DNA of 64,000 bases from Actinomycetes bacterium. GTDB lineage: Bacteria > Actinomycetota > Actinomycetes > Mycobacteriales > Mycobacteriaceae. The DNA lies in contig JAKOYE010000101.1 of the NCBI GenBank assembly GCA_029780675.1, positions 22,173 to 86,172 on the forward strand. Direction: 5' to 3'. This document shows positions 6,228-51,565 of this stretch, one piece after another. The notes below the pieces were generated by a model. It did not search any database. It saw nothing but the letters and a program-made list of their open reading frames with translations, and was not told the origin of the DNA. Position numbers and translations under genes: made by a program. Position 1 is the stretch's first letter. Each line of letters opens with the position of its first letter.

Positions 6228-6269
6228 AGAGAAGCCGGCGTCACACTCATTGGTGACGCCGGCTTCTCT
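6228..6269. terminator. 17-bp perfect hairpin terminator between bL37 and rshA
   Basis: AGAGAAGCCGGCGTCAC-actcattg-GTGACGCCGGCTTCTCT; no U-tract, likely bidirectional between convergent genes. Confidence 0.8.
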
Positions 6270-6318
6270 GTACCTGCGTAGCTTCTCGGCCTGCGTATTT
6301 TCTCGTCCTGCCGGGAAC

Positions 6319-6603
6319 CTAGGTATGCCGGATGATCGTGGTGCGGCTGATCTGCATCCGAACCCGCTCCACCAGGTAGGACGGTGCGCGTTCGCCACTG
6401 CACTTGGCGGCGATCAGCGCCTTGATCCGCTCCTCGACCCCGTAATGCCGCAGACAGGCCGGGCACTGCTCAAGGTGGTGCCGTAACCGATCGCGGGTGT
6501 CGTCAGTGACTTCCCCGTCCAGCAGGGTCCAGACCTCGGCGATGACCAGCGCACAGTCGCTGTGCCCCGGATCGGGGTCGGACCGGATGTCACTGGTGGT
6601 CAT
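6319..6603 (-). CDS. rshA: zinc-binding anti-sigma factor (RshA/RsrA family)
   Basis: [22 protein letters not shown] (HxxxCxxC); overlaps sigH. Confidence 0.88.
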
Positions 6604-16966: not shown

Positions 16967-18277
16967 TCAGCGCAAGCGCGAGGCCCGGGAGCGCACCTCG
17001 GCGATCGCCGTCCGCAGACCGCGACGGTGTTCGGCGGGTGCCAGCGCGTCGAACATCCGCTCGCTGCGGGTCTCCGGCGCGTTGTCGGCGCTGTCGCGCA
17101 GGAACCGGTTGGGCAGCGACAGCTTGGCGATGGTGCGCCAGGTCTTGGCATACTGCACCGGCAGCGGGCCACTGGTGTAGGGCAGGTCGTACTTGGCGCA
17201 CAGGGCGCGCACCCGGACCGCGATCCCGGGCAGTCGGTGGCTGGGCAGGTTCGGGTACAGGTGGTGCTCGATCTGGTAGGCCAGGTTGCCGGTGAGGAAC
17301 CCCAGCGCCGGGCCGGCATCGATATTGGCGCTGCCCAGGAGCTGACGCAGGTACCACTGGCCGCGGGTCTCCCCCGCCATATCGGTGAGGCTGAACTTCT
17401 CCGCCCCGTCGGGGAAGTGTCCGCAGAAGATCACCGCATTGGCCCACAGGTTGCGGAGGAGGTTGGCGGTGGCGTTCGCCACCGCCGTCGAGGCGAATCC
17501 GACCCAAGCCGTCGAGGCGAATCCGGCACGAGCCCGCGCGGCGAAGCCGACCCGAGCACCCGAGGCGAAGCCGACCCGGGAGCCGTCCCCCTTCACGACC
17601 CGAACCAGCGCCGTCAGCGCCGGGAAGGCAACGTAGTCCTTGGCCAGCTGGCGGCCCGCCTTGGCACCGAACTCCCGCAGCCGGACCACGGTGGCCGGCC
17701 GGGTCTCGGGGTCGGCGAGCTTGCCGATCTCCAAGTGCTGCAGCGCGATTCCCCACTCGAACCCGATGGCGAGCATCGCGTTGAACGGCACGTTCAGCAG
17801 GTTGCGCGGTCGCCACGGGTCGTCGCGGGTGACCCGCAACAGTCCGTACCCGACATCGTCGTCCATGCCGAGGATGTTGGTGTACTTGTGGTGGGCGACG
17901 TTATGGGTGATCCGCCAGTGTTTGGAGACACCGGCCATATCCCACTCCCAGGTACTGGAGTGGATCTCCGGGTCGTTCATCCAATCCCACTGGCCGTGCA
18001 TGACGTTGTGGCCGATCTCCATGTTCTCGATCACCTTGGCCAGCGCCAGGGTCAAGGTGCCGGCCCACCACGTCCGGCGCCGCGAACCGACGGCCAGCAG
18101 CACCCGGCCGGTGACCTCCAGCCCACGCTGAACGGCGATGGCGCGCCGGATGTAGCGGGCGTCGGCGGCACCCAGCGACTCCTCCACGTCGCGGCGGATG
18201 GCGTCCAGTTCGGTTCCCAGCGCCTCGATGTCGGCCTCGGTGAGGTGCGCGAATGCTTCGATATCGGTGATTGCCAT
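16967..18277 (-). CDS. desA3: fatty acid (stearoyl-CoA) delta-9 desaturase, DesA3-like
   Basis: HNVMHGQWDW, HNVAHHKYTN, QIEHHLYPNLPSHR histidine boxes. Confidence 0.92.
   Translation of the reverse strand: MAITDIEAFAHLTEADIEALGTELDAIRRDVEESLGAADARYIRRAIAVQRGLEVTGRVLLAVGSRRRTWWAGTLTLALAKVIENMEIGHNVMHGQWDWMNDPEIHSSTWEWDMAGVSKHWRITHNVAHHKYTNILGMDDDVGYGLLRVTRDDPWRPRNLLNVPFNAMLAIGFEWGIALQHLEIGKLADPETRPATVVRLREFGAKAGRQLAKDYVAFPALTALVRVVKGDGSRVGFASGARVGFAARARAGFASTAWVGFASTAVANATANLLRNLWANAVIFCGHFPDGAEKFSLTDMAGETRGQWYLRQLLGSANIDAGPALGFLTGNLAYQIEHHLYPNLPSHRLPGIAVRVRALCAKYDLPYTSGPLPVQYAKTWRTIAKLSLPNRFLRDSADNAPETRSERMFDALAPAEHRRGLRTAIAEVRSRASRLR
17484..17579 (-). repeat. 4 x 24-bp in-frame tandem repeat in desA3 (R/W-V/A-GFA-S/A-x-A)
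   Basis: Encodes RVGFASGA RVGFAARA RAGFASTA WVGFASTA. Confidence 0.93.
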
Positions 18278-44872: not shown

Positions 44873-46533
44873 ACCCGCTCCCCCGCGGCTTCCCGCTGCC
44901 GCAACGCCCGAAGCTGGTCGGTCTGCGGGTCGCGTCGCTCCGCGGCGACCGGCCGCAGCGGCAAGGGACTGGTGGTCACCTTGTGCCCGCGCACCAGCGG
45001 CAGCGTCAGCCGGAAACAGGCGCCCTTGCCCGGCTCCCCCCACGCCTCCAGCCGGCCCTGGTGCAGGCGGGCGTCCTCGATGCTGATGGCCAGGCCCAGC
45101 CCGGTGCCGCCGGAACGTCGCACCCGGGAGGGATCCGAACGCCAGAACCGGCTGAACACCAACTTCTCCTCACCGGGACGCAGACCAACACCGAAGTCGC
45201 GGACGGTGACCGCGACGGTGTCCTCGTCGGCACCCATCTTGATGCGCACCGGCTTGTGCTCGGCGTGGTCGATGGCGTTCGCGATGAGGTTGCGCAGGAT
45301 GCGCTCCACCCGGCGGGGGTCCACCTCGGCGATGATCTCGTGATCGGGCATGTCGACGAGCAGGTCGATGCCGGCGTCCTTGGCCAGGTGGCCGACCTTC
45401 TTGAGCGCGTTGCCGACGGTGCTGCGCAGGTCGACCGCCTCCACCGACAGCTCCGCCACCCCCGCGTCGTGCCGGGAGATCTCGAGCAGATCGTTGAGCA
45501 ACGCCTCGAACCGGTCGAGTTCGCCGACCAGCAGTTCGGTGGACCGGCGCAGTGCCGGATCGAGGTCCTCGGCGTGGTCGTAGATCAGATCGGCCGCCAT
45601 CCGGACCGTGGTCAGCGGCGTCCGCAGCTCGTGGCTGACGTCGGAGGTGAAGCGGCGCTGCAGGTTTCCGAACTCCTCCAGGTTGGTGATCTGGCGCTGC
45701 AGGCTTTCGGCCATATCGTTGAACGACACCGCCAGCCGCGCCATATCGTCCTCGCCGCGCACCGGCATCCGCTCGGAGAGATGGCCTTCGGCGAACCGTT
45801 CGGCGATCCGCGATGCCGACCGCACCGGCAGCACCACCTGACGCGAGACCAGCATGGCGATACCGGCGAGCAGAACCAACAGCACCAATCCGCCGGTGAC
45901 CATGGTCCCGCGCACCAGGGTGATGGTGTTCTCCTCGCTGGTGAGCGGGAAGATCAGGTACAGCTCGAGATTCGTCACCCGGGACGGTGCCGGCGTGCCG
46001 ACCAGCAGGGCCGGCCCGGCGAACGTCTCGGTGCGCACGGTTTCGTACTGGTAGCTGACCTGGCCGGCCTTGACGAACTCGCGCAGCGAGCGCGGAATCT
46101 GGTCGACCGGGCCCGCCGACGTCGCCTCCCGCGGACCGTCGCCGGGCACCATCAGCACCGCGTCGAAGGTGCCGGCCAGGCCCGCACCGGAGGTCTGCCC
46201 CGTTTTGGAGATCAGGGTGTTGCGGGCCAGTTGCAGGCTGGAGTCCAGCGACCGAGCCTCCTCGCCGCTGACGATCCCGCTGACGGTGGCGCGCGCCCGG
46301 GCGATCTCCTCGGTGGCGGCCTTCACCTTCACTTCAAGGACCCGATTGGTGATCTGGCTGGTAAGCACGAAGCCGAGCGCCAGAATGACGACGGCCGACA
46401 GCCCGAGGGTCAGGACCACCACCCGCAATTGCAACGAGCGCCGCCAGATCTGGGCCATCGAGCGACTGACGGCGCTGGTGATCCGGACCAGCGGTCCCGA
46501 GCGGCCCCACGGGCCCCGAACGCGGGTTCTCAT
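44869..46533 (-). CDS. mtrB: two-component sensor histidine kinase MtrB
   Basis: [27 protein letters not shown], HATPase [18 protein letters not shown]. Confidence 0.95.
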
Positions 46534-49437: not shown

Positions 49438-49509
49438 GGCGACTCCGTCGCGCGGTTAACTGGCGACTTCGCCGTGCGGTTAACCGGCGACTCGGGTGCC
49501 CGGTTACCC
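49438..49509. repeat. 3 x 24-bp degenerate tandem repeat spanning the 3' end of the TetR gene
   Basis: ggcgactccgtcgcgcggttaact / ggcgacttcgccgtgcggttaacc / ggcgactcgggtgcccggttaccc. Confidence 0.88.
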
Positions 49510-50118
49510 GGCGCCGTAGCGCTCGGCGAACGGCGTCATCAGCCGGGCCAGGTCGGTGGCGGCGTCATGGTCACCTGCCGAGTCGCTGTCGACCGGCATC
49601 GACACGTAACTCATCGCCAGTCGGACGGTCGCCCGGGCCAGCACGCCGGCGTCCTCCTCGCTGGGCTGAACCCAGCTCTGCAGGAAAGCCTCCTGCAACC
49701 GGGCCGAGCAGTGCGCGATGATCGGCCCGGAGTCGGTGGTGACGAGCTGCAACAGGTCGGGCTTGACCTCCCCGGACAGTAGCGAGATGACCAGCGGGTC
49801 GGCGGCCGAGGCCGCGAAGAAGGCCCGGAATCCGGCCAGGAAGGCGCCGTAGACGTCACCGACGTGGGCGTTGATCGCCCCGTCGATATCGTCGACCAGT
49901 CGGTCGGCCAGTCGCAGCGCGTAGGCCTGGGCCAGGCCCAGCCGGGAGCCGAACTCGTTGTAGATGGTCTGACGGCTGACCCCGGCGGCCCGGGCAACGT
50001 GGGTGAGGGTGATCGCCGACCAGTCCTTGGCCAGCAGTTCGGAGCGCATCCCGTCCAGCACGGTGTCCCGCAGCAGCGCCCGCGACGCCTCGGCGTAGGG
50101 GACCCGACGGGATGTCAC
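49504..50118 (-). CDS. TetR family regulator of the alkB cluster (AlkX/Rv3249c-like)
   Basis: [39 protein letters not shown] start. Confidence 0.87.
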
Positions 50119-50135: not shown

Positions 50136-50258
50136 TCAACCGCTGTCGCGCGGGCCAAGGGGTTCGAAGTCGATCTTCTCCCGCACACCGCAATCCGGGC
50201 AGCGGTAGGCGCTCACGCCCCCGTTCACACTGCCCCCGTTCACGCTGCCCCCGCTCAT
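50136..50258 (-). CDS. truncated (half) rubredoxin-like ORF, 40 aa; possible decayed rubA
   Basis: MSGGSVNGGSVNGGVSAYRCPDCGVREKIDFEPLGPRDSG; only one CxxC; ATGA overlap with alkB. Confidence 0.6.
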   Translation of the reverse strand: MSGGSVNGGSVNGGVSAYRCPDCGVREKIDFEPLGPRDSG

Positions 50259-51505
50259 GATGTCTGCGCCGGGCTGCCGTACCGGGCCAGGATCTTCTCC
50301 CGGCGCCGCGGGTCGACGTTGACCTTGGTGATGTCGCCGTTGTAGTGCTCGAGCAGCCGGTGGTCCATCATCTTCCGCCACAGCGGCGGGAAGTAGGTCA
50401 CGCCGATCAGGGTCGCGTAGCCGCTCGGCAATTCCGGGGCCTGGCTCATCGAGCGCAGGATCTGGTAGCGCCGGGTGGGGTTGGCGTGGTGGTCGCTGTG
50501 CCGCTGCAGGTGATAGAGGAACAGGTTGGTCACCAGGTGATCGGAGTTCCAGCTGTGCTCGGGGCGGACCCGCTCATAGCGGCCGCTGGGGTTCTTCTGT
50601 CGCAGCAGGCCGTAGTGCTCGAGGTAGTTCACCGATTCCAGCATGGAGAAACCGAACACCGCCGAAATGACCATGTAGGGCAGCACGCCCCAGCCGAAGA
50701 CCGCGGTCAGGGCGCCCCACAGCACCACCGACATCGCCCAGGCGTTGAGCACGTCATTGCCCGGCCAGGTCCGGGGATCCCACGGGCTGCGGCCCTGTCG
50801 ACGGATGCGGGCGGCCTCCAACTTCACCGCCGAACGGACGCTGCCGATCACGCTGCGCGGCAGGAACTCCCAGAACGTCTCCCCGAAGCGCGCCGAGGCG
50901 GGGTCCTCCGGGGTGGCGACACGGACGTGATGGCCACGGTTGTGCTCGATGTAGAAGTGCCCGTACCAGGTCTGGGCCAGCGTGATCTTGGACAGCCAGC
51001 GTTCCAGCGCGTCGCGCTTGTGGCCGAGTTCGTGGGCGGTGTTGATCCCGGTCCCGCCGAGCACACCGACGCTGAGCGCCAGTCCGATCTTGGCGAACCA
51101 GCTCAGACCGCCCTCGTAACCCAGCCAGGACAGGTCGGTCGCGGTGAAGGCGTAGGCGCCGAAGATCACCGAGGCGAACTGGAACGGGATGAAGGCGTAG
51201 GTGCAGTACCGGTAGTACCTGTCGTTCTCCAGGTACTCCATCACCTCGTCGGGCGGGTTCTGGCCGTCGCGGCCGAAGCGGATGTCCAGCACCGGCAGCA
51301 GTACGTAGATCAGGAACGGGCCCACCCAGAACAGCACCTGGGAGGCCGTGGTCCAGCCGGCGTGGTTGAGCGCCCACACCACCGGCAGCACGACGAACAA
51401 CGCGGTCGGCGCCACCAGGCCGAACAACCACAGGTAGCGCTTCTTATCCCGCCAGGGCGCAGCGGCTCCGGCCGCCTCGACATTGGTATCCAGCTGAGAG
51501 GTCAT
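50255..51505 (-). CDS. alkB: alkane 1-monooxygenase AlkB
   Basis: NTAHELGHK, HFYIEHNRGHHVRVATPEDPASAR, LQRHSDHHANPTRRYQ histidine boxes. Confidence 0.95.
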   Translation of the reverse strand: MTSQLDTNVEAAGAAAPWRDKKRYLWLFGLVAPTALFVVLPVVWALNHAGWTTASQVLFWVGPFLIYVLLPVLDIRFGRDGQNPPDEVMEYLENDRYYRYCTYAFIPFQFASVIFGAYAFTATDLSWLGYEGGLSWFAKIGLALSVGVLGGTGINTAHELGHKRDALERWLSKITLAQTWYGHFYIEHNRGHHVRVATPEDPASARFGETFWEFLPRSVIGSVRSAVKLEAARIRRQGRSPWDPRTWPGNDVLNAWAMSVVLWGALTAVFGWGVLPYMVISAVFGFSMLESVNYLEHYGLLRQKNPSGRYERVRPEHSWNSDHLVTNLFLYHLQRHSDHHANPTRRYQILRSMSQAPELPSGYATLIGVTYFPPLWRKMMDHRLLEHYNGDITKVNVDPRRREKILARYGSPAQTS

Positions 51506-51565
51506 GTCGTTGACTATATGACCGATTTTGTCGGCTGTCTAGACAAAGAAGCATATTTTGTAAAG

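Follow-up and report, generated by a model that had tools for sequence, protein, structure and literature searches.

The window, that is, the whole 64,000-nt stretch of DNA analyzed, comes from an uncultured mycobacterium (genome labelled G000, 93 per cent complete) and raises the question of whether a short open reading frame (ORF) after the alkane 1-monooxygenase gene alkB, which contains half of a rubredoxin, is a working gene or what is left of one. A preliminary description of this DNA had left both readings standing, as a decayed gene or a homodimeric mini-rubredoxin.

A single-knuckle ORF between alkB and alkX

The ORF encodes 40 amino acids (MSGGSVNGGSVNGGVSAYRCPDCGVREKIDFEPLGPRDSG; positions 50136..50258, minus strand), starts at an ATGA overlap with the alkB stop codon, and stops 17 nt ahead of a TetR-family gene that starts with GTG and sits in the position of alkX. 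The preliminary description gave its coordinates, strand, translation, and coupling to alkB exactly, and its claim that only two cysteines remain also holds: C20 and C23, in the stretch ...SAYRCPDCGVREKIDFEPLG..., are the sole cysteines of the translation. The beginning of the first rubredoxin motif, SAYRCP, is fused to the second motif, CPDCGVREKIDFE.

Homology to the intact RubA proteins of relatives and the position after alkB identify the ancestor of the ORF as an AlkG1-type rubredoxin (RubA). Rubredoxins of this type are defined by a CXXCX plus CXXCG pattern (PMC8918992) and are reported not to be required for AlkB activity, the active electron donor being the AlkG2-type (RubB) (PMC8918992, PMC9430723). 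Most close relatives (e.g. ENV421 and G136) have CPVCD or CPICD followed by CPDCG and thus show the AlkG1-type pattern; in UBA39, CPVCD is present and the second motif is cut by the contig end, and ZLKRG26 is an exception with CPVCG. Like mycobacterial RubA (Rv3251c type, gene order alkB-rubA-rubB-alkX), the ORF lies directly after alkB with overlapping codons and carries SAYRCP and the second-motif segment. Unlike RubA, it lacks 33 residues, retains two of the four cysteines, and has an additional N-terminal repeat of approximately 14 residues.

This repeat is encoded by a 15-bp tandem array (50217..50257, minus strand; 2.7 copies, 92 per cent matches), which reiterates an overlap of the alkB-stop/rubA-start type (xTGA) and yields the SVNGG repeats as well as additional GTG start codons in frame. 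No such array is found at the corresponding site in UBA39, in agreement with the earlier view that the repeat was gained. The GTG that matches the rubA start position of relatives (GTGAGCGCCTACCGC) is located at 50214..50216 (minus strand), and a product initiated there would have 26 amino acids.

The PF00301 rubredoxin family is characterized by two CxxC knuckles with four cysteine ligands per chain, and the ORF has one knuckle. It has no PF00301 match by hmmscan at E <= 1, and neither Pfam nor NCBIfam gives a rubredoxin match. An AlphaFold2 model of the ORF product has a mean pLDDT of 56.6, a pTM of 0.19, and two short strands, and at this low confidence it says little about the compact fold of 45–55 residues expected of a rubredoxin. 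One knuckle cannot complete an Fe(Cys)4 site within a monomer, and, judging from its sequence, the product is most likely non-working as a rubredoxin.

A 99-bp deletion between the two cysteine motifs

Among genomes that do not carry the deletion haplotype, the closest relative is the metagenome-assembled genome (MAG) HKST-UBA39, whose AlkB is 96 per cent identical to that of the window. In the AlkB tree, built on neighbors collected from whole genomes and GTDB contigs, UBA39 and the genomes with the deletion form a supported clade, which ZLKRG26 adjoins in a position that the tree does not resolve. The rubA gene of UBA39 reads MSAYRCPVCDFVYDEAKGAGREGFPAGTPWSEVPDDWCCP as far as the contig end. 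In both UBA39 and the MAG ZLKRG26, the sequence GCTGyCCGG is present at each of the two CPxC motifs, with a spacing of exactly 99 bp; G136 has the shorter TGCCCGG, likewise with a 99-bp spacing. The window has a single remaining GCTGCCCGG (50195..50203, minus strand; junction sequence GCCTACCGCTGCCCGGATTGCGG), with the rubA start (GTGAGCGCCTACC) to its left and the second knuckle to its right. Because the near-identical repeats of the relatives lie exactly 99 bp apart and one copy is left in the window, the rubA gene has undergone a clean in-frame deletion of 33 codons, as the preliminary description had proposed from the microhomology at the CPxC motifs. A deletion running from rubA into rubB was ruled out, as the tail of the ORF product, REKIDFE, is of the RubA type and RubB ends in GAAKSDFE.

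The UBA39 contig (L075; JAGQTS010000254.1) terminates at position 6380, which is the last base of its second GCTGCCCGG copy. The coincidence of this contig end with the deletion breakpoint of the window may be due either to chance or to strain heterogeneity.

Probable decay of rubA at an apparently maintained alkB locus

The preliminary description noted no second rubredoxin before the tetR gene, and indeed rubB is absent between the rubA remnant and alkX. The search for other rubredoxins that it called for, carried out as a six-frame profile search, gave no PF00301 match elsewhere in the approximately 93 per cent complete G000 assembly. A second genome with the same ORF (G032, also approximately 93 per cent complete) has no rubredoxin by profile search, and candidates elsewhere in the two genomes were weak chance matches only. 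A rubredoxin may reside in the approximately 7 per cent of the G000 genome that was not assembled. For a reductase with a Rubredoxin_C domain, only matches below the cut-off were obtained in G000, G032, UBA39, ZLKRG26, and G136; this absence is not decisive, because the M. tuberculosis reductase is likewise unidentified (PMC9430723).

The rest of the locus looks maintained. The alkB gene (50255..51505, minus strand) encodes a full-length AlkB of 416 amino acids with intact histidine motifs, and it is under strong purifying selection (dN/dS of approximately 0.06 in comparison with UBA39; 0.0229/0.369). Its promoter, TAGACA-17-TATAGT (51513..51541, minus strand), is conserved in relatives, and the start codon 7 nt past the -10 element suggests a leaderless alkB mRNA. 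An inverted repeat, TTTGTCTAGACAgCCGACAAA (TTTGTCTAGACA..CGACAAA; 51527..51547, minus strand), overlaps the alkB -35 region, is also conserved in relatives, and is probably the AlkX operator. The next gene after the remnant, on the other side of the place normally occupied by rubB, is intact and encodes an alkX-type TetR regulator of 204 amino acids (49504..50118, minus strand), its position being comparable to that of alkX in the M. tuberculosis gene order (PMC9430723). Since AlkB, promoter, inverted repeat, and alkX are all intact or conserved, AlkB was preserved into the recent past and is perhaps preserved to this day. A separate gene of the fatty-acid-desaturase family (PF00487) is located elsewhere in the window (~17171-18073, minus strand).

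In most relatives, the gene order is alkB-rubA-rubB-alkX. ZLKRG26 and G136 have alkB-rubA-alkX, with rubB absent and one rubredoxin per assembly. Loci of alkB with rubA only were found at L138, L142, L089 (ZLKRG26), and in G136, and rubB-only loci at L101, L105, and L114. UBA39 is uninformative on rubB, as its contig breaks off within rubA and the genome yielded no close alkX. Among individual loci, L089, L073, L138, and L142 have the AlkG1-type RubA and lack RubB next to alkB, and L113 has an apparent further rubA remnant (VSCRCPEPVVADVNSATRHAGKASC...; ~6230-6340) between alkB and an intact rubB. Like these other decayed mycobacterial alkB loci (the L113 remnant, the rubB-only loci, and the rubA-only loci), the window has a lost or degraded rubredoxin gene next to a retained alkB; unlike them, it has both rubredoxin genes affected and no intact rubredoxin in the assembly.

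Ordinary gene decay is, in our judgment, most likely what happened to rubA, plausibly with rubB lost first and the repeat-mediated 99-bp deletion following. The loss of rubB, plausible in light of the related MAG loci, would have produced an alkB-rubA-alkX order. Replication slippage or recombination between the GCTGyCCGG stretches of the two CPxC knuckles would then have removed 99 bp (33 codons) and left a frame-preserving remnant that could not form an Fe(Cys)4 site in a single chain, and the 15-bp array also grew at the alkB/rubA junction. AlkB would now be without a dedicated donor, borrowing another one, or itself heading for loss. Counting against decay, the frame of the remnant and its added repeat is open, without a stop or frameshift, the retained half has the conserved second-knuckle residues, and alkB, its promoter, and alkX look maintained; we nevertheless infer that the remnant has lost its function. 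Because RubA is of the AlkG1 type, which is reported to be dispensable for AlkB, the decay of rubA may have been of little consequence; the missing rubB poses the greater difficulty. If rubA is indeed decaying, the locus provides a clear case of repeat-mediated gene loss and raises a usable question, namely, how an apparently conserved AlkB persists in a genome without a detectable rubredoxin, its usual electron carrier. Together with the RubA-only relatives, it offers natural cases in which to study the role of AlkG1-type rubredoxins and alternative AlkB donors.

Other readings of the remnant and a second genome

The remnant could instead be a translated spacer, in which coupled reading feeds ribosomes to alkX or protects the transcript and the peptide itself is inert. 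The overlap with alkB, the stop 17 nt before the alkX start, and the several in-frame starts in the array are consistent with this role, and M. tuberculosis has a transcription start of alkX within its rubA (PMC9430723). That start, however, is 205 nt upstream of alkX, and its equivalent here would be within alkB; moreover, the spacer differs in both length and sequence in ZLKRG26 and G136. We consider a spacer function unlikely.

Among 397 genomes of the genus, the fused half-rubredoxin form occurs only in G000 and G032, the latter being a river MAG (JAUPLT010000234) that encodes an identical 40-aa ORF. Among 399 genomes of the order, no fused form was found besides that of G000; the weaker matches, when read, were full-length (G459 was left out), and a Nocardia farcinica match was rejected for the same reason. 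Plasmid searches returned ordinary alkB and rubredoxin genes only, and no natural half-rubredoxin was found in the open-access papers searched. Upstream of ~51150, a position inside alkB, the window and the G032 contig (C210; L071) mostly diverge by ~8–13 per cent, whereas from ~51150 to the end of the G032 contig at 45131 the divergence is ~0.15 per cent. The shared segment of ~6 kb (~99.9 per cent identical) includes the 3' part of alkB, alkX, sahH, and mtrA; other compared regions of the two genomes are at most 92 per cent identical. Correspondingly, dS in alkB is 0.23 over the first 130 codons and 0.02 over the remaining ones. The abrupt drop in divergence within alkB, from ~11 to ~0.15 per cent, reflects either a chimeric MAG contig or a recent recombination event between species that spanned at least 6 kb. 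Since the G032 copy lies on a shared, near-identical haplotype, it does not amount to independent evolutionary conservation and is silent on selection on the remnant; the two copies have zero differences, so the pair yields no dN/dS.

The second reading of the preliminary description was a functional homodimeric mini-rubredoxin, in which two peptides, each with one CPDC knuckle, would share one iron and feed AlkB. Such a protein would be a natural counterpart of the METP proteins, designed miniaturized rubredoxins that, like the remnant, have a single CxxC hairpin from the rubredoxin knuckle (PMC8434281, PMC10130062). The two CxxC turns of rubredoxin are related by pseudo-C2 symmetry, and the METP undecapeptide, itself derived from rubredoxin, forms dimers around iron whose spectra resemble those of rubredoxin (PMC8434281, PMC10130062); the remnant retains the strand ahead of the knuckle and the whole second-motif segment, and alkB is still intact. 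METP, however, was designed and shown to dimerize around metal, whereas the remnant is natural and known here from its sequence, and metal binding by the METP dimer is weaker than that by the single-chain form (PMC8434281). The remnant also lacks the aromatic core and middle loop and no longer matches the rubredoxin profile, its structure model is of low confidence, the fused form is confined to one haplotype in the genus and order surveys, and the parental RubA type is not the donor of AlkB (PMC8918992, PMC9430723). Of the two readings, decay thus gains from the lack of a Pfam or NCBIfam match, the single shared haplotype, and the low-confidence fold, and the homodimer, for which the METP precedent speaks, appears very improbable. 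Should the peptide prove active, nature would have produced a rubredoxin-like electron carrier of exceptionally small size, with implications for the origin of the pseudo-symmetric fold.

An assembly artefact, in which reads from a complete chromosomal rubA were collapsed or misjoined, is hardly to be expected: G032 is a MAG and the genome of the window resembles one, the G032 breakpoint in alkB could reflect chimerism, and the UBA39 contig end coincides exactly with the repeat, but the same deletion in a second assembly makes a private assembly error unlikely, the 9-bp repeat is far shorter than assembly k-mers, and the separate 15-bp array is common to both assemblies.
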